From Candidatus Liberimonas magnetica (GTDB lineage Bacteria > Elusimicrobiota > Endomicrobiia > Endomicrobiales > JAFGIL01), in the NCBI GenBank assembly GCA_020523885.1, contig JAJAPY010000001.1, forward strand, positions 310,001 to 374,000: a stretch of 64,000 bases of DNA. Reading direction: 5' to 3'. Position numbers and translations under genes: made by a program. Under the pieces are notes generated by a model, which had not been told where the DNA came from, did not search any database, and saw only the letters and a program-made list of their open reading frames with translations. Every line of letters begins with the position of its first letter. Positions within the stretch are counted from its first letter, which is position 1. This document shows positions 5,839 to 13,381 of this stretch, piece after piece.

Positions 5839-6711
5839 ATGGCAGACACCGTAGTAACGTCAAATGAAGGATACCGCATAGACATTGACAACGCCAGCGC
5901 TTACAGCGATAAAGCATTCAAAGTATCTCACGACAACGGCACAGAACTTTTCAGAGTACAGGAAGACGGTAATGTTGGCGTCGGTGTGACTAGTCCGACA
6001 TATCCGTTTCAGGTATCAAAAGATGGGACGGAACTCAAAAATCCGGGCAAATCGGTAGGTTTATTTACAAATGCTGCGGTCAATCTTGGAATACATGTGG
6101 GTTATGATTCAGATAATGGCGGTGTAATTGCATCGGCAGGGGCAAATAAACCAATTACTTTCTGGACATATTATCCGGATTATGCAGAACGAGTAAGAAT
6201 TACAGGAAACGGTGCAGTAGGAATAGGTACCTCGAGCCCGGGAGCGAAGCTGGATGTAAGCGGTGATGCAAAGATAAGCGGGAATCTCGCGGTTGATACG
6301 AATGTTTTATTTGTTGATACAGCAAATGATAGAGTGGGAATAGGTACAGCAAGTCCGAGCAGTAAACTTGATGTTTCTGGTGATATTGAAATAGGAAGCG
6401 GGGATGCTATATATATTGGAGATCCCAATACAAACAACAGTTTGCGCATTCAGCAATACACTAATGCTTTTAGTTTTGAAAAACGGATTGATGGCAATTG
6501 GAATATTAGTACTGCTAGTATTGGAGTGGATGTAATAAGTGCAAATCAAATAAATGTGCCTACAGTAAATGCATCTACTCTTAATGTTGGAGATATATCA
6601 ATAGATGGGGTAATTCAAAACACCTCTGCATCTCCTGTTACTAATAAATTTTTGCGTATTTATTCAGATGATGATGAAAAGTACTACTATATACAATTAT
6701 GTGCAGTATAA
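5839..6711 (+). CDS. Tail-fibre-like repeat protein, cassette 1
   Basis: Predicted surface or secreted fibre of 290 residues; exact function unknown. It contains repeats of the phage-tail-fibre-type motif VGIGTSSPGAKLDVSG, followed by strand-rich linkers, which normally trimerise into a shaft. The start at 5839 (MADTVV...) follows AAGGGGG and matches the second cassette's MVDTY start; an ATG 42 nt earlier lacks a ribosome binding site. It ends in an acidic, tyrosine-rich tail (IYSDDDEKYYYIQLCAV) and lacks the S74 autoprocessing domain of its larger paralogue. No signal peptide is visible, so the export route is unclear. It is followed by a barrel protein after 30 nt. Confidence 0.75.
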   Translation: MADTVVTSNEGYRIDIDNASAYSDKAFKVSHDNGTELFRVQEDGNVGVGVTSPTYPFQVSKDGTELKNPGKSVGLFTNAAVNLGIHVGYDSDNGGVIASAGANKPITFWTYYPDYAERVRITGNGAVGIGTSSPGAKLDVSGDAKISGNLAVDTNVLFVDTANDRVGIGTASPSSKLDVSGDIEIGSGDAIYIGDPNTNNSLRIQQYTNAFSFEKRIDGNWNISTASIGVDVISANQINVPTVNASTLNVGDISIDGVIQNTSASPVTNKFLRIYSDDDEKYYYIQLCAV

Positions 6712-6741: not shown

Positions 6742-7413
6742 ATGACTAGAAATATATTGATAACAATAATTTGTTTTCAACTGGCATCAGCAATTTTGCT
6801 TGCAGAAGAAAATACAAAATTTTATTTCGTTCATAAATATCTCTTTTCAAATAATAATACATTAAGTGATGAAGTCGCATATTCTAACTCCAATACCAGT
6901 ATTTCTTCGCAAAAAGGGAAAGGCTACAGCTTGAACCTTTACGGGATAGGTATTAAATATAAAATTATATCCAATAGTTATCTGGATTTTGCCTATACGA
7001 TATTGCCTAATAAGGTTACTGTTACTAATAAAAGGTTTATTGATTATACTTATAATACTGATTCTATTTCAAATTATGACATAATTTCACTGAATGAAAT
7101 AGCGCTAGGATATATTTATGATTATAAGATTAGAAATAGGTTGTCAATACCTGCAGGAATAGGAATGAATTTTACAAGAGGCTCTATGTGGATTAATAGT
7201 TATGACAATTATTTGGCCAATGATTTTTCTCCATATTTAAAGTTAGGCATTAATTATAATCTTGCAAAACGTTGTGATGTTGGAATAAATATCTCATATA
7301 ATTGGCGAAAAAATCTAGATTTTCAAATAAATGAATCACGATCTTCGTCATCGAACATTAATATTGACATAAATCCATTATCAATTGAAGCAGTATTATT
7401 ACTGTATCTCTAA
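6742..7413 (+). CDS. Small outer-membrane beta-barrel protein, cassette 1
   Basis: 223 residues with a Sec signal peptide (about residues 1-22, ending ILLAEE). The mature part shows alternating aromatic/polar strands (YSLNLYGIGIKYKI, SYLDFAYTILPN, YLKLGINYN, DVGINISYNW) and a hydrophobic C-terminus ending LLLYL, as expected for a barrel of 8-10 strands. GGAGG precedes the ATG. It lies 30 nt after the fibre gene, and the second cassette has an equivalent barrel in the same place, which suggests it anchors or exports the fibre. No named family is recognised. Confidence 0.7.
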   Translation: MTRNILITIICFQLASAILLAEENTKFYFVHKYLFSNNNTLSDEVAYSNSNTSISSQKGKGYSLNLYGIGIKYKIISNSYLDFAYTILPNKVTVTNKRFIDYTYNTDSISNYDIISLNEIALGYIYDYKIRNRLSIPAGIGMNFTRGSMWINSYDNYLANDFSPYLKLGINYNLAKRCDVGINISYNWRKNLDFQINESRSSSSNINIDINPLSIEAVLLLYL

Positions 7414-7481
7414 AAAGGAAAAAGGAGTCTTTCTCGCTAAGAGGGATTTAACCTATTTAAATTTATATTGAGGAGTTCAAC

Positions 7482-7640
7482 ATGTCCGACCAGCAAAAGG
7501 CTGAGCTTACAAAAGAACAAATCTCGATTCTTCTTCAAATCATCAATAAAACCAGTGTTATAGGCGAGCAGGTAGAAGTAATAGCTCACCTCAAACAAAC
7601 CCTCGTTCAGATGTTTAACGAAAAAAAGAAAAACAGTTAA
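7482..7640 (+). CDS. Conserved 52-residue acidic/helical protein, cassette 1
   Basis: A short frame starting MSDQQKAELTKEQISIL and ending QMFNEKKKNS, with AGGAG at good spacing. It is predicted to be a single amphipathic helical hairpin with no membrane segment. A second copy at 12419-12571 differs at only a few residues and keeps the frame, which supports real coding despite the small size. The sequence just before it (TTTAAATTTA to AGGAGTTCAACATG) is nearly the same as the leader of the large fibre gene. Function unknown. Confidence 0.75.
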   Translation: MSDQQKAELTKEQISILLQIINKTSVIGEQVEVIAHLKQTLVQMFNEKKKNS

Positions 7641-7767: not shown

Positions 7768-7796
7768 TTGACATGGCCATTTGAAATGACTATAAT
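7768..7796 (+). promoter_or_regulatory. Consensus promoter with palindromic operator candidate, TA locus 1
   Basis: TTGACA (7768-7773), exactly 17 bp, TATAAT (7791-7796): both hexamers are perfect consensus. The spacer holds the palindrome ATGGCCAT (7773-7780), a likely binding site for the Phd-type antitoxin in autorepression. The same block is identical at the second TA locus. Confidence 0.8.
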
Positions 7797-7815: not shown

Positions 7816-8046
7816 ATGAAAACCATGAATGTAACAGATTTTAAATCCCATGCTCTTCAGATAATAAGCAAGGTGGCTGAACTGCATGAGACAATAATCA
7901 TAACGAAACGAGGCAAGGCCTTGGCTGAGCTAATCCCATTTAAACCACATGATAAAAAAGCTTCTTACGGCAGGCTTTCATCGGCATTGATAAGTCAAAA
8001 AGATATAGTAGCGCCGATAGACGAAGAATGGGAGGCGAACAAGTGA
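7816..8046 (+). CDS. Phd/YefM-family antitoxin, copy 1 (toxin partner broken)
   Basis: A 76-residue DNA-binding antitoxin of the Phd/YefM fold. MNVTDFKSHALQII is the dimerisation/DNA-binding N-terminus, ITKRGKALAELIPF the characteristic strand-turn, and the acidic tail ending PIDEEWEANK the toxin-wrapping segment. The start at 7816 is set by AGGAGG 6-7 nt upstream; an ATG-like codon further upstream lies within the promoter. Its DNA is about 95% identical to copy 2 (12 differences in 231 nt by my count; 4 residue changes). Its own toxin is truncated, so it may serve as a spare antidote to the intact second toxin. Confidence 0.9.
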   Translation: MKTMNVTDFKSHALQIISKVAELHETIIITKRGKALAELIPFKPHDKKASYGRLSSALISQKDIVAPIDEEWEANK

Positions 8047-8177
8047 AGTATCTGATGGATACGCACGTGTGGATTTGGTGGCATATGCAGCCTGAAATGC
8101 TTTCCAAAAAAGCAAAAGAAATTATCAGTGATACCCGCGGCTATGAAGAAATGCTTGTATCGGCTATCTCAATATGA
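8043..8177 (+). pseudogene. Truncated PIN-domain toxin (VapC-like), copy 1
   Basis: GTG start overlapping the antitoxin stop (GTGA). The first 44 codons match the intact copy at 12983 almost base for base (MDTH-WIWWHM-PEMLSKK, EEMLVSAIS). Identity ends abruptly after TCAATATG at 8176, where transposase-element sequence begins and creates an immediate TGA. Only the first conserved acidic residue of the PIN active site remains, so the product should be inactive. Confidence 0.9.
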
Positions 8178-9248: not shown

Positions 9249-9293
9249 CAACGTCCCATATATCCCTTTTAAATTTACGTTAAGGAGTTCAAC

Positions 9294-11573
9294 ATGGTAG
9301 ACACCTACATTCAGGATGCTGATCAGGACACCAAAGTACAAACCGAAGCTAATTCCGATGAAGATAAAATAAGGTTTACTACAGCGGGTACTCAAAGAGC
9401 GATAATTCTTAACACAGGCGATGTAGGTATAGGGAAGAATCCTACAAGGCGATTAGATGTTCTGGGTGATATTTGTTCGGATATTGGCGAAGCTAGTGCA
9501 AGCGGTTTTATGTGGGGTTCAGGAGGTGGTAACAGGTTCAAGCTTACTTATGACGGGAAACTAAAACTGTTTTCAGATGCACTTGGAGACGAGTCCCCCA
9601 TAATTACTTTTATAAGAGCTGATGGCAGCGTAGGAATAAACACAGCAAGCCCGAACGCGAAACTGGATGTGCGTGGTAATGCGGTTTTTAATGAAGACGC
9701 TGGAAATTATGATTTTAGGGTAGAAGGTGTTACAAATGCCAATTTATTATTCATTGATGCTTCTGAAGACAAAATAGGTATAGGGAAAGGGAATCCTACG
9801 AGGCGATTAGACGTTCAAGGTGACATTTGTTCGGATATTGGCCAAGATAGTGCCAGGGGTTTTATATGGGGTTCAGCAGAAGCTAACAGGTTCAAACTTA
9901 CTTATGATGGGGCTTTAAAACTGTTTTCAGACGCACTTGGTGACAATACCCCTATAATTACTTTTATAAGAGCTGATGGAAAAGTAGGCATTAACACAGC
10001 AAGCCCGGGAGCAAAACTGGATGTAAGCGGTGATGCAAAGATAAGCGGGAATCTTGCGGTTGATACGAATGTTTTATTTGTGGATACTTCGGGTGATTAC
10101 GTTGGAATTGGAACGAATACCCCGGGAGCGAAGCTGGAGGTATCTGGCGGAAACTTAAAGATGACGAGCGGCAATATCATGCTTAATAACAACTGGCTAA
10201 GCGGGGACGGTGGCAATGAAGGGATATACATAGATTCTTCTGGACAAGTTGGAATCGGAACGTCAAGTCCTAATATAGCCGGTGGCGATTATAGGGTACT
10301 TACAATAGCTGACACTACCAATTATGGTGCAAGCTTAGAGCTTCTTTTTGGAAGCGGTGGAGTAGGCCTGATTTCGTTTCATAACTCGCAGGCGCAGCAA
10401 AGCGGAAAAACAATAGCGTATATCCATGGTGGCCCCGATGGTGGGAGCAATAACGCCGGAAAGATATCTTTTTGGACAGTAGATTCTTACGAGACAGGCC
10501 ATAATCCACTCGTATTAAGTAATGATGGAACATTAAGCATCACCGGGACAACCTCGGGCACAAATCCAAAGGTTACAATTGGAAATTCAAGTGATTATGT
10601 TAAATGTCTTGTCATTAACCAGAACGTAGATTCGCCCACGTCAGGAACAAGAGGGCTTGATATAGTTTACGGTGGAGCTAGCGGAAGGACGAGTGATAAT
10701 ACAGAGTTACTTCGCCTTTATGATGCAAACAATGCCTCATCAAAACCTATGCTTAACGTTCAATATGCGGGAACTGGGACGAATGTTCCTGTGGCAGTAT
10801 TCCAGGGCGGCAACGTGGGGATTGGGACAACAAATCCTGGGTTGTTACTAACATGTAATGGGTCTTTAGGATTTCCCGCTTCATCAGGTTCTACCCAAAC
10901 AGGGATATTCAGAATAGAAAACACGACGAACAATACCGTAATAGATATGGGAATAGCGAATAATTATACACCTTTCGGTGCATGGATACAGGCTGTTGAC
11001 AAGAGTAATCTTGCAACCGAACGTCCACTGATTTTAAATCCTAATGGAGGTGCGGTTGGCATCGGTGTGACAAGTCCTGCGGAAAGCCTTGAAGTTAATG
11101 GAAATACGATAATCAGTGGTGGTCTTGATGTTCATTCTGGCACTATATTTGTGGATCCTACCAATAATAGAGTTGGAATTGGTACTATTACCCCTAGTGA
11201 AACCTTACACTTAGATAGCGGCTCAATTCGTATCGATAGTATTGGTCAAGGTGATGTATATACTGATGCAAATTATACTTTGAGAACATCATCAGACGAA
11301 AGGAATAAGCGTGTATATGGTGACGTGCAATATGGATTAAAGGAAATCATGAAATTAAAACCAAAATTCTTTAATCTGAAAACTGACCCTCAAAATTCTG
11401 CTCGTAATATAGGATTCATAGCCCAGAATGTTGTTGAAGCCGGGATTATTGAAGCTGCTCCAAAAGATGAAAATGGATATTATAGCCTTAACTCCAGAGG
11501 AATTATTGCTGCTTTGGTAAATGCTGTAAAAGAACAACAAATTCAAATTGAAGAGCTAAAAAAGGCTAAATAA
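9294..11573 (+). CDS. Large tail-fibre-like protein with C-terminal S74 autoprocessing chaperone, cassette 2
   Basis: 759 residues. The shaft is built from many VGIGTxxPxxKLDVxG motifs, as in phage fibres and bacterial surface fibres. The last 94 residues are an intramolecular chaperone/peptidase S74 domain: TSSDERNKRVYGD carries the Ser667-Asp...Lys672 dyad that in this family cleaves the domain off after trimerisation. LKPKFFNLK, GFIAQNV and a terminal coiled coil (KEQQIQIEELKKAK) follow. AAGGAG precedes the ATG. No Sec signal is seen at the N-terminus (MVDTYIQDADQDT). It contains two near-repeat blocks (residues about 44-123 and 161-242) and one segment almost identical to the cassette 1 fibre. 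A barrel gene follows by 38 nt. Confidence 0.85.
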   Translation: MVDTYIQDADQDTKVQTEANSDEDKIRFTTAGTQRAIILNTGDVGIGKNPTRRLDVLGDICSDIGEASASGFMWGSGGGNRFKLTYDGKLKLFSDALGDESPIITFIRADGSVGINTASPNAKLDVRGNAVFNEDAGNYDFRVEGVTNANLLFIDASEDKIGIGKGNPTRRLDVQGDICSDIGQDSARGFIWGSAEANRFKLTYDGALKLFSDALGDNTPIITFIRADGKVGINTASPGAKLDVSGDAKISGNLAVDTNVLFVDTSGDYVGIGTNTPGAKLEVSGGNLKMTSGNIMLNNNWLSGDGGNEGIYIDSSGQVGIGTSSPNIAGGDYRVLTIADTTNYGASLELLFGSGGVGLISFHNSQAQQSGKTIAYIHGGPDGGSNNAGKISFWTVDSYETGHNPLVLSNDGTLSITGTTSGTNPKVTIGNSSDYVKCLVINQNVDSPTSGTRGLDIVYGGASGRTSDNTELLRLYDANNASSKPMLNVQYAGTGTNVPVAVFQGGNVGIGTTNPGLLLTCNGSLGFPASSGSTQTGIFRIENTTNNTVIDMGIANNYTPFGAWIQAVDKSNLATERPLILNPNGGAVGIGVTSPAESLEVNGNTIISGGLDVHSGTIFVDPTNNRVGIGTITPSETLHLDSGSIRIDSIGQGDVYTDANYTLRTSSDERNKRVYGDVQYGLKEIMKLKPKFFNLKTDPQNSARNIGFIAQNVVEAGIIEAAPKDENGYYSLNSRGIIAALVNAVKEQQIQIEELKKAK
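9423..10021 (+). repeat. Internal duplication within the large fibre gene
   Basis: Two diverged in-frame copies of about 245 bp (roughly 9423-9664 and 9775-10021). Each encodes NPTRRLDV-GDICSDIG, a GF-WGS block, NRFKLTYDG-LKLFSDALGD, PIITFIRADG and VGINTASP-AKLDV. They flank a unique linker, which suggests growth of the shaft by duplication. Confidence 0.85.
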
Positions 11574-11611: not shown

Positions 11612-12403
11612 ATGAACAAATACTGCTTTGTTCTGATGTTTCTTTTTGTTACATCCGTTGCTTCTGCCGAAAGCAAATGGACTCCTTATACTTCTATTGG
11701 ATATAGATTCATCCCGGGGAAATATTATTATGTGCTAGTGAGTGGAGAGAAAAGCGGTGGAAGCGCAACTTCAATTGAGTATAGCCAACATGAGAAAAAC
11801 GCAAACCTGGAACTGGTAGCGGCAAGATTTTCGCTTATGAAATCTTGCGGCTCGTTTCAATTCGGGTTTGAATATGGATTGGATTTTTCTGGTAAAAATA
11901 CAAGTAATGAATGGAGACTGGCAAAAGATGTTTCCGATGGAGCGTTTGAGTATCTGCTGTCTGATGGTGGGCCATCACGCAATTCTGAAAAGACAATCAT
12001 TAAATCAATCGAAACCATGGCCATACCTTTGCTTGTTAACTGTAGCTTCAATATATTTGAAAAAAAAGAGTATGCATTTAGAACAAGGTTGGGAGCGGGT
12101 GTTTATATTATCAATCAAATGGAAGACAACAGTATAAATCCAGACGTGCTTAGCATAACTGGTTATAACTGGGATTGGAGAACTACAGATAGAGAAAATA
12201 TTTTAGTGATAAATACTATTTATGAATTTAGTCCAGAATTTATTTATAAAATATCAGATAGTTTAGATTTAGGCTTGAAATGCGATATTGCATATATCCC
12301 CAAATATAAACTATTTAATTTTGAAGTGCCTGCAGGTAAAACCGAATATGAATTCGGAGGAATTGCTTACGGTGGCGGAGTATCGCTAAATTTAAATTTC
12401 TAG
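11612..12403 (+). CDS. Small outer-membrane beta-barrel protein, cassette 2
   Basis: 263 residues with a Sec signal peptide (about 1-19, ending SVASAES). The mature part has alternating strand patterns (WTPYTSIGYRFIPG, FQFGFEYGLDF, FRTRLGAGVYII, SLDLGLKCDIAYIP, IAYGGGVSLNLNF) and ends in phenylalanine, the classic outer-membrane barrel signature. It occupies the same position relative to the fibre and 50-residue genes as the cassette 1 barrel, though sequence similarity between them is not obvious. Role inferred: anchoring or export partner of the fibre. Confidence 0.72.
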   Translation: MNKYCFVLMFLFVTSVASAESKWTPYTSIGYRFIPGKYYYVLVSGEKSGGSATSIEYSQHEKNANLELVAARFSLMKSCGSFQFGFEYGLDFSGKNTSNEWRLAKDVSDGAFEYLLSDGGPSRNSEKTIIKSIETMAIPLLVNCSFNIFEKKEYAFRTRLGAGVYIINQMEDNSINPDVLSITGYNWDWRTTDRENILVINTIYEFSPEFIYKISDSLDLGLKCDIAYIPKYKLFNFEVPAGKTEYEFGGIAYGGGVSLNLNF

Positions 12404-12418
12404 TAAAGGAGCCTTCCA

Positions 12419-12571
12419 ATGTCCGATCAGCAAAAGACTGAACTTACCAAAGAACAAATATCGATACTTCTTCAAATCATCAATAAAACCAGCGTTGTAG
12501 GCGAGCAGGTGGAAGTAGTGGCGAACCTCAAGCAGACCCTCGTTCAGATGTTTAATGAAAAAAAGAAATAG
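12419..12571 (+). CDS. Conserved 50-residue helical protein, cassette 2
   Basis: Paralogue of the frame at 7482: MSDQQKTELTKEQISIL, then conserved LLQIINKTSV-GEQVEV, ending QMFNEKKK. AAAGGAG lies about 8 nt upstream, and it starts 15 nt after the barrel stop. Most base differences from copy 1 fall at third codon positions, as expected if the protein is under selection. No function is recognised. Confidence 0.78.
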   Translation: MSDQQKTELTKEQISILLQIINKTSVVGEQVEVVANLKQTLVQMFNEKKK

Positions 12572-12707: not shown

Positions 12708-12736
12708 TTGACATGGCCATTTGAAATGACTATAAT
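12708..12736 (+). promoter_or_regulatory. Consensus promoter with palindromic operator candidate, TA locus 2
   Basis: TTGACA (12708-12713), 17 bp, TATAAT (12731-12736), with ATGGCCAT in the spacer. It is identical to the block at TA locus 1 through the ribosome binding site, so both antitoxins probably bind both operators. Confidence 0.8.
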
Positions 12737-12755: not shown

Positions 12756-12986
12756 ATGAAAACGATGAATGTAACAGATTTTAAATCCCATGCTCTTCAG
12801 ATAATAAGCAGGGTGGCTGAACTGCATGAGACAGTAATCATAACAAAACGGGGCAAGGCCTTGGCCGAACTAATCCCATTTAAACCACATAATAAAAAAG
12901 CTTCTTGCGGCAGGCTTTCATCAGCATTGATAAGTCAAAAAGATATAGTAGCACCGATAGATGAAGAATGGGAGGCGAACAAGTGA
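12756..12986 (+). CDS. Phd/YefM-family antitoxin, copy 2
   Basis: A 76-residue antitoxin paired with the intact PIN toxin immediately downstream. Domain features are as in copy 1, with K-to-R, I-to-V, D-to-N and Y-to-C substitutions. The start is fixed by AGGAGG just upstream. The stop TGA overlaps the toxin GTG (GTGA), so antitoxin is translated first and the toxin by coupling, as is normal for type II TA operons. Confidence 0.93.
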   Translation: MKTMNVTDFKSHALQIISRVAELHETVIITKRGKALAELIPFKPHNKKASCGRLSSALISQKDIVAPIDEEWEANK

Positions 12987-13381
12987 AGTATGTGATGGAT
13001 ACGCATATATGGATTTGGTGGCATATGAAGCCTGAAATGCTTTCCAAAAAAACAAAAGAAATTATTAGTGATACCCGCGGGTATGAAGAAATGCTTGTAT
13101 CGGCTATCTCAATATGGGAGTTTTGCAAACTAATCCAAATGGAGAGGATTGTTATTTCCTGCGACACGGAAGAATGGATTAAGAAAGCTATTGACATGCC
13201 GAAATTCAGGATTGTCCCTTTGTCAACAGCAATTTCAATTAGTTCAACAACACTGCCTGAAGGATTTCACAGTGATCCTGCAGACCAGATAATAGTAGCA
13301 ACAGCACGAGAAGAAAATGCAACGATATTGACATCGGATAAGAAGATTATTTCCTATAAACATGTTAAATCAGTTTGGTAA
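12983..13381 (+). CDS. PIN-domain toxin (VapC-like ribonuclease), copy 2
   Basis: A 132-residue type II toxin; PIN toxins cleave tRNA or rRNA until neutralised. The four acidic metal-binding positions are visible: D in VMDTHIW, E in ISIWEFCKL, D in SDPADQIIVATA and D in LTSDKKI. I chose the GTG at 12983, with GGAGG 7 nt upstream and 4-nt overlap with the antitoxin; an ATG 15 nt earlier is possible. The combination of a Phd-type antitoxin with a PIN toxin is common. This copy is intact, unlike the one at 8043. Confidence 0.92.
   Translation: MKYVMDTHIWIWWHMKPEMLSKKTKEIISDTRGYEEMLVSAISIWEFCKLIQMERIVISCDTEEWIKKAIDMPKFRIVPLSTAISISSTTLPEGFHSDPADQIIVATAREENATILTSDKKIISYKHVKSVW

Follow-up and report, generated by a model that had tools for sequence, protein, structure and literature searches.

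A conserved small helical protein encoded behind phage-like fibre and outer-membrane barrel genes in Elusimicrobiota: a candidate fibre-assembly factor

The closest described counterparts of the system reported here are helper proteins of phage tail fibres and phage-like fibres encoded by bacterial chromosomes. The phage T4 protein gp57A, which is 79 residues long and free of aromatic residues, cysteine and proline, is described as a general tail-fibre chaperone (PMC3004832). The Tfa-type protein gp25 of Pam3 is a separate fibre chaperone that is encoded with its fibre and that combines a beta-sandwich and a helical domain in 162 residues (PMC9608196). The MAT fibres of Bdellovibrio are described as chromosomal, phage-like, modular and trimeric; some of them carry an S74 domain, and their signal peptide is followed by an N-terminal domain of about 130 residues (PMC10769870). 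The passages of that paper on MAT fibres name no small partner gene (PMC10769870).

The locus described here lies in a stretch of 64,000 nucleotides (the window) from Candidatus Liberimonas magnetica (Elusimicrobiota), whose genome assembly comprises 3.39 Mb in 29 contigs; sequence relatives place it in this phylum, the one at family level being an Endomicrobiales MAG. Two cassettes were found in this window, each composed of a tail-fibre-like gene, a gene for an outer-membrane beta-barrel and a small gene:

5839..6711, + strand: tail-fibre-like protein 1, 290 aa from ATG 5839; PHROG tail fiber families at E 8.4e-17; N-terminal family A4
6742..7413, + strand: outer-membrane beta-barrel 1, 223 aa with a signal peptide; Pfam OMP_b-brl at E 9.9e-6 (26.3 bits, under the 28.7 cut-off)
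7470..7475, + strand: ribosome binding site GAGGAG of small protein copy 1, from the sequence
7482..7640, + strand: small protein copy 1, 52 aa, ATG start, predicted helical hairpin; from the open reading frame, homologues and an AlphaFold2 model
9294..11573, + strand: tail-fibre-like protein 2, 759 aa; Peptidase_S74 chaperone domain at the C-terminus (PF13884, E 6.3e-8)
11612..12403, + strand: outer-membrane beta-barrel 2, 263 aa with a signal peptide; from sequence comparison, model and Foldseek
12406..12411, + strand: ribosome binding site AAGGAG of small protein copy 2, from the sequence
12419..12571, + strand: small protein copy 2, 50 aa, ATG start; 92% protein identity to copy 1

The frame of fibre 1 is open from GTG 5797. 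Neither window fibre has a signal peptide according to hydropathy, and no S74 domain was detected in fibre 1. Like T4 gp57A, the small protein is very small and would be a single helper for several fibres; the window copy contains no Cys, no Pro and a single Phe. gp57A, however, serves phage fibres, and the small protein matches no PHROG family with an assigned function: in a comparison of all seven members with PHROGs up to E 10, every hit was to a functionally unassigned family, and none was to a gp57A family. The likeness to Tfa and Pam3 gp25 lies in the presence of a separate putative fibre chaperone beside the fibre, but the small protein is a predicted hairpin of about 50 residues. In contrast with the MAT fibres, the window fibres are signal-less and none of ten fibres compared has a hydrophobic N-terminus; the S74 subgroup of MAT fibres is echoed in the C-terminus of window fibre 2 only. 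The order of fibre, outer-membrane protein and fibre helper recalls the J-lom-stf-tfa region of phage lambda, a likeness for which a literature search gave no support. An extracellular contractile injection system was also considered and rejected, the sheath domain PF04984 being found in none of nine genomes. No account of a fibre-barrel-small protein cassette in Elusimicrobia was found in the literature searched on tail fibers and adhesins.

The frame at 7482-7640 is a real protein-coding gene under purifying selection. The original prediction had called it too short for gene callers; common ones accept lengths of 90 nt or more. It had described a 52-residue protein nearly identical to the frame at 12419, and the two proteins indeed share 92% of their residues over 50 positions, for 134 identical nucleotides out of 150 (89%). 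It had also announced mainly synonymous changes: 15 of the 50 codons differ, 11 by synonymous and four by non-synonymous changes, and the dN/dS ratio is low whether computed by NG86 (0.038/0.546 = 0.07), YN00 (0.056/0.234 = 0.24) or maximum likelihood (0.043/0.343 = 0.12). The expected ribosome binding sites were recognized as an AGGAG-type motif before the start of both window copies. Frameshifts or an excess of non-synonymous changes were searched for in the homologues; no such excess was observed (271, 99 and 425 differences at the three codon positions, over 21 pairs and 36 codons) and six of the seven copies are intact. The notion of a conserved, coding and cassette-linked small gene was thereby confirmed.

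These seven copies were recovered from six of 340 Elusimicrobiota genomes by a single-sequence protein search (E 3.2e-10 or better). A profile built from the seven proteins (A1) returned the same seven copies from the 340 genomes at E 4.8e-26 or better, and the best match beyond them reached only E 0.003. A scan of GTDB contigs for close relatives yielded two loci, both from Elusimicrobiota. Residues Q13, Q19, I20, N22, G28, Q30, L37, K38, L41 and M44 are invariant in the seven copies. An ATG codon and an upstream purine-rich stretch resembling a Shine-Dalgarno sequence were found in six of them, the exception being L014 (genome G339), which has neither. This seventh copy has lost its start, adjoins no fibre or barrel gene and lies near a contig end, so it is probably a remnant.

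The order fibre, barrel, small protein is found in all six complete loci, which come from five genomes (the two window copies, L011, L012, L013 and L015). The barrel gene and the small gene are separated by 68, 15, 11, 347, 12 and 13 nt, that is 11-68 nt in five loci and 347 nt in L012, and the cassette is presumably transcribed as one operon. The long gap of L012 contains, within 889-1236 on the minus strand, a remnant of the C-terminus of a type-2 barrel about 12 nt ahead of the intact small gene, together with two possible decayed small-gene starts (none of 200 shuffles as good, tblastn E around 0.01, wider scan marginal). These remnants suggest a collapsed tandem array.

Fibres and barrels are distinguished by their N-termini: the maximal 15-residue hydropathy in this region does not exceed 1.46 in ten fibres and is at least 2.29 in six barrels, so that the fibres have no hydrophobic N-terminus and the barrels have one. 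Barrel 2 is 40% identical to the L015 barrel and 29% to the L069 barrel; its model has about 10 strands (pLDDT 66), and Foldseek retrieved ordinary outer-membrane barrels (OmpA, Legionella porins, OprG, OmpT, FadL). The two window barrels are only 14% identical to each other, and all the barrels compared are 14-26% identical to barrel 1, whereas the small proteins of the relatives are 44-92% identical to copy 1. Fibres and barrels are thus either swapped or change rapidly around a small protein that remains constant.

Several fibre loci are devoid of the small gene. Four fibres have a common N-terminal module (A4), whose profile gave eight strong matches (E <1e-20) in seven of the 340 genomes. 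Among the seven A4 loci that could be assessed, the small gene is present in four (G000 copy 1, G324, G327 and G333) and absent from three (G240, G212 and G171:C282), a count biased toward the small gene because A4 was built from the four fibres that have it; the remaining one, G171:C213, is interrupted where its contig ends. G333 has, at another locus, a related fibre cassette lacking the small gene, and G212 and G171 have a fibre and a barrel without it. When signal-less fibre loci are counted (the two of the window, L011-L013, L015, L066, L067, L069 and L227), six of ten have the small gene, and no clear decayed copy was seen in L066, L067, L069 or L227. As the gene is missing from related fibre cassettes in other genera, the small protein is considered accessory. 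It is not essential for the folding of all such fibres, since four of the ten loci do without it and fibre 2 has its own S74 domain. No correlation between the presence of the small gene and that of S74 was apparent by eye. Additionally, L229 (5857-8529) encodes a fibre with a signal peptide, alongside a lipoprotein and a barrel, without a small gene. The S74 fibre loci of L227 (2528-6797) and L229 (5857-8529) have one to three similar lipoprotein-like genes between fibre and barrel. Glycosyltransferase-like proteins, recognized by eye, are encoded beside signal-less fibres in L015 (10192-11568), L066 (7493-8179) and L227 (1729-2379), and these proteins from three genomes share one C-terminal motif.

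AlphaFold2 predicts from the seven sequences a compact two-helix hairpin, with helices at residues 11-23 and 30-50 and a mean pLDDT of 87.8. No significant family match of the small protein was found in Pfam, NCBIfam, PHROG or the PDB. A Pfam match to SarA/Rot (E 0.05, 14.2 of the 27 bits required) and two PDB sequence matches (E 0.044 and 0.3) are sub-threshold. Foldseek aligned the hairpin with small uncharacterised phage proteins, the best at E 6.6e-3 and none below 0.001; no weight was given to these matches because hairpins resemble one another readily. PHROG families 21778, 20869, 21915, 5198 and 1113 were considered as relatives (E 0.02-4) and dropped after members of the phage small-protein families described below had failed to match them. 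PHROG 21778 ranks other sites of the window's genome as high as the small protein or above it.

The fibres are connected to phages: their shafts match PHROG tail-fibre families, and relatives of module A4 were found in 55 viral contig loci, where small helical ORFs were seen downstream of fibres. Direct phage homologues were searched for by tblastn, with none found for the window protein or that of L015. Five records obtained with L013 (E about 6) were rejected as chance matches; they include an internal match in a longer phage protein and a ribonucleotide reductase. The A1 profile gave no match in the viral contigs, nor among 3729 small ORFs taken from the first 55 of the viral loci. In IMG/VR, two related families of phage small proteins were gathered near tail-fibre genes, one (L142-L221) with at least 508 relatives and the other (L230-L309) with 154. 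Of their members, 17 compared with PHROGs gave nothing below E 0.02, and five compared with Pfam matched no family. In the first, V2 (at least 508 relatives), a detectable fibre lies upstream in 38 of 80 loci, typically 306-340 nt before the small gene. The other, initially V1 from 11 loci, matches V2 (hhalign P 1.4e-5). Six V1 sequences aligned with the small-protein family at P 0.021, close to chance since one to four of 150 controls were as good. A wider V1 set, V3, was also assessed (79 hits, 56 of them distinct, from 80 loci of the 154 relatives); its members are roughly 50-75 residues long and are encoded beside tail-fibre genes in uncultured phages (e.g. L287:2998-3147 and L134:4001-4192).

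With V3, the hhalign score against the small-protein family rose from about 15 for V1 to 23.8 in an unchanged register (P 1.1e-4, probability 56), over just 21 columns corresponding to the first helix. None of 600 column-permuted controls was as good (best 17.4); by plain HMM bits, two to eight of 300 controls were. With 22 sequences, P was 1.8e-4 and the probability 48. Against 1843 host ORFs, the V3 model ranked five family copies 1, 2, 4, 5 and 7 (E 0.25-3.6, none significant), and in the reverse search with the small-protein model the 23 best listed among 1479 ORFs of V3 loci were all V3 members (best E 0.013). When the 340 genomes were searched with a phage profile (A8), the window protein was not among the matches at E 0.1, while other frames reached 6.8e-4. 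No intermediate sequences between the small-protein family and V3 were found. The gene context is comparable: a tail-fibre gene, one further gene and then the small gene are found in the window, L011, L012, L013, L015 and many V3 phage contigs. Six of nine genes upstream of V3 members match PHROG families labelled tail fibre, two match only the unlabelled phrog_5906 and phrog_9563, as the window fibres also do, and one has no match. Both groups have about the same size and the helix start LTxEQxxxLLQxI[DN]. They differ in the intermediate gene, which codes for a protein of about 115 residues or a glycosyltransferase-like protein in V3 and for the barrel in the Elusimicrobiota cassette, in the acidic C-terminal tails of many V3 members and in that only the first helix aligns. 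From these sequence comparisons, a common origin of the two families is somewhat favored; the LTxEQ start could also have arisen by convergence.

The reading that fits best is that the small protein is a general fibre-assembly factor of phage origin, i.e. a holding or trimerisation chaperone, to which we give a probability of roughly 0.45. It is preferred because the protein is conserved and helical, has no export signal and is encoded last in an operon with a signal-less fibre. The original prediction had proposed a chaperone, a regulator or a fibre adaptor in a cassette with the toxin-antitoxin (TA) genes; these roles agree with the context, a chaperone or assembly factor being the best supported, but the TA link does not. 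The hairpin protein of about 50 residues, encoded after a signal-less fibre and a secreted barrel, would reside in the cytoplasm and would bind and chaperone the fibres, remaining constant while fibre and barrel diversify. Its gene was probably taken over together with the fibre from a phage tail-fibre operon. If the small protein does assist fibre assembly, it would offer for study a chaperone pared down to some 50 residues. A more elaborate scheme, in which a domesticated phage tail-fibre operon became a surface-fibre system whose fibre is kept export-competent or trimerised by the hairpin and uses the barrel as route or anchor, is improbable as a whole; if true, the fibre would reach the surface through or onto the barrel, a route that such fibres are not known to take. 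In any case, an uncatalogued small-protein family tied to phage-like fibres in bacterial chromosomes is added to a phylum on which few experiments have been made.

In the window, both small genes are followed by a TA pair and a transposase gene lies between the cassettes:

7768..7796, + strand: sigma70-type consensus promoter of TA copy 1, TTGACA-17-TATAAT, from the sequence
7816..8046, + strand: PhdYefM-like antitoxin copy 1; open reading frame, family assigned from the scan of copy 2
8028..8177, + strand: PIN toxin copy 1, ending early after about 49 codons
8244..9248, + strand: IS200-like (Y1) transposase with a DnaA-like C-terminal domain, between the cassettes; family scan
12708..12736, + strand: sigma70-type consensus promoter of TA copy 2
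12756..12986, + strand: PhdYefM-like antitoxin copy 2; Pfam PF02604 at E 4.7e-8
12968..13381, + strand: intact PIN-domain toxin copy 2; Pfam PF01850 at E 1.3e-15

The small gene and the TA pair were copied together within the window, as would be expected if its product were a third component of the PhdYefM-PIN module. However, other genes lie downstream of the small gene in L011, L012, L013 and L015, where the TA pair is absent, and both window pairs have a promoter of their own, located between the small gene and the pair and matching the consensus at 12 of 12 positions. The TA pair is thus regarded as a passenger, the tie to the small protein was rejected and a third component is extremely improbable. 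The position between barrel and TA, originally predicted to be invariant, is conserved on the barrel side in the six complete loci, but its TA side is confined to the window. The shortened PIN toxin copy 1 adjoins the IS200-like transposase, and antitoxin copy 1 is intact. Other fibre cassettes are flanked by what we take to be TA-like or AbiE-like genes (L069 448-905 and 3073-3634, L012 3200-4695).

As the main rival to the assembly factor, the small protein could serve as a structural adaptor or cap. It would remain on the fibre, link the conserved fibre N-terminus with the barrel or some other part of the envelope and exit the cell in the way the signal-less fibre does. The small gene is indeed present directly behind the barrel in all complete loci with fibre and barrel, and its product lacks a signal peptide as the fibre does, but G212 and G171 make do with fibre and barrel, no export route is known and Phage_sheath is missing from all nine genomes, so that this role is rather unlikely. 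Less likely still is a small regulator acting on operon expression or as an RNA- or DNA-binding hairpin: the small size, the helices and the place of the gene at the end of the operon would suit it, as would the weak SarA/Rot match, but this match is far under the cut-off, a winged helix would not fit into so short a protein and the net charge of the seven sequences ranges from -1 to +3. The gene could also act as a homology anchor, i.e. a constant repeated end allowing exchange or deletion of fibre-barrel modules, with a protein of little importance. Such a function would account for window copies 89% identical in DNA next to unrelated barrels and for the barrel remnant and possible decayed starts of L012; selection on the protein across the phylum contradicts it and makes it very unlikely.

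The 30 nt that precede small gene 1 (7452-7481) and fibre gene 2 (9264-9293) are identical at 25 of 30 positions, whereas the leaders of small genes 1 and 2 are unlike (8 of 30), which points to a possible recombination scar. Elsewhere in the window's genome (G000), contigs C17 and C4 contain open frames of 11,894 and 12,656 codons, which possibly code for giant surface proteins.
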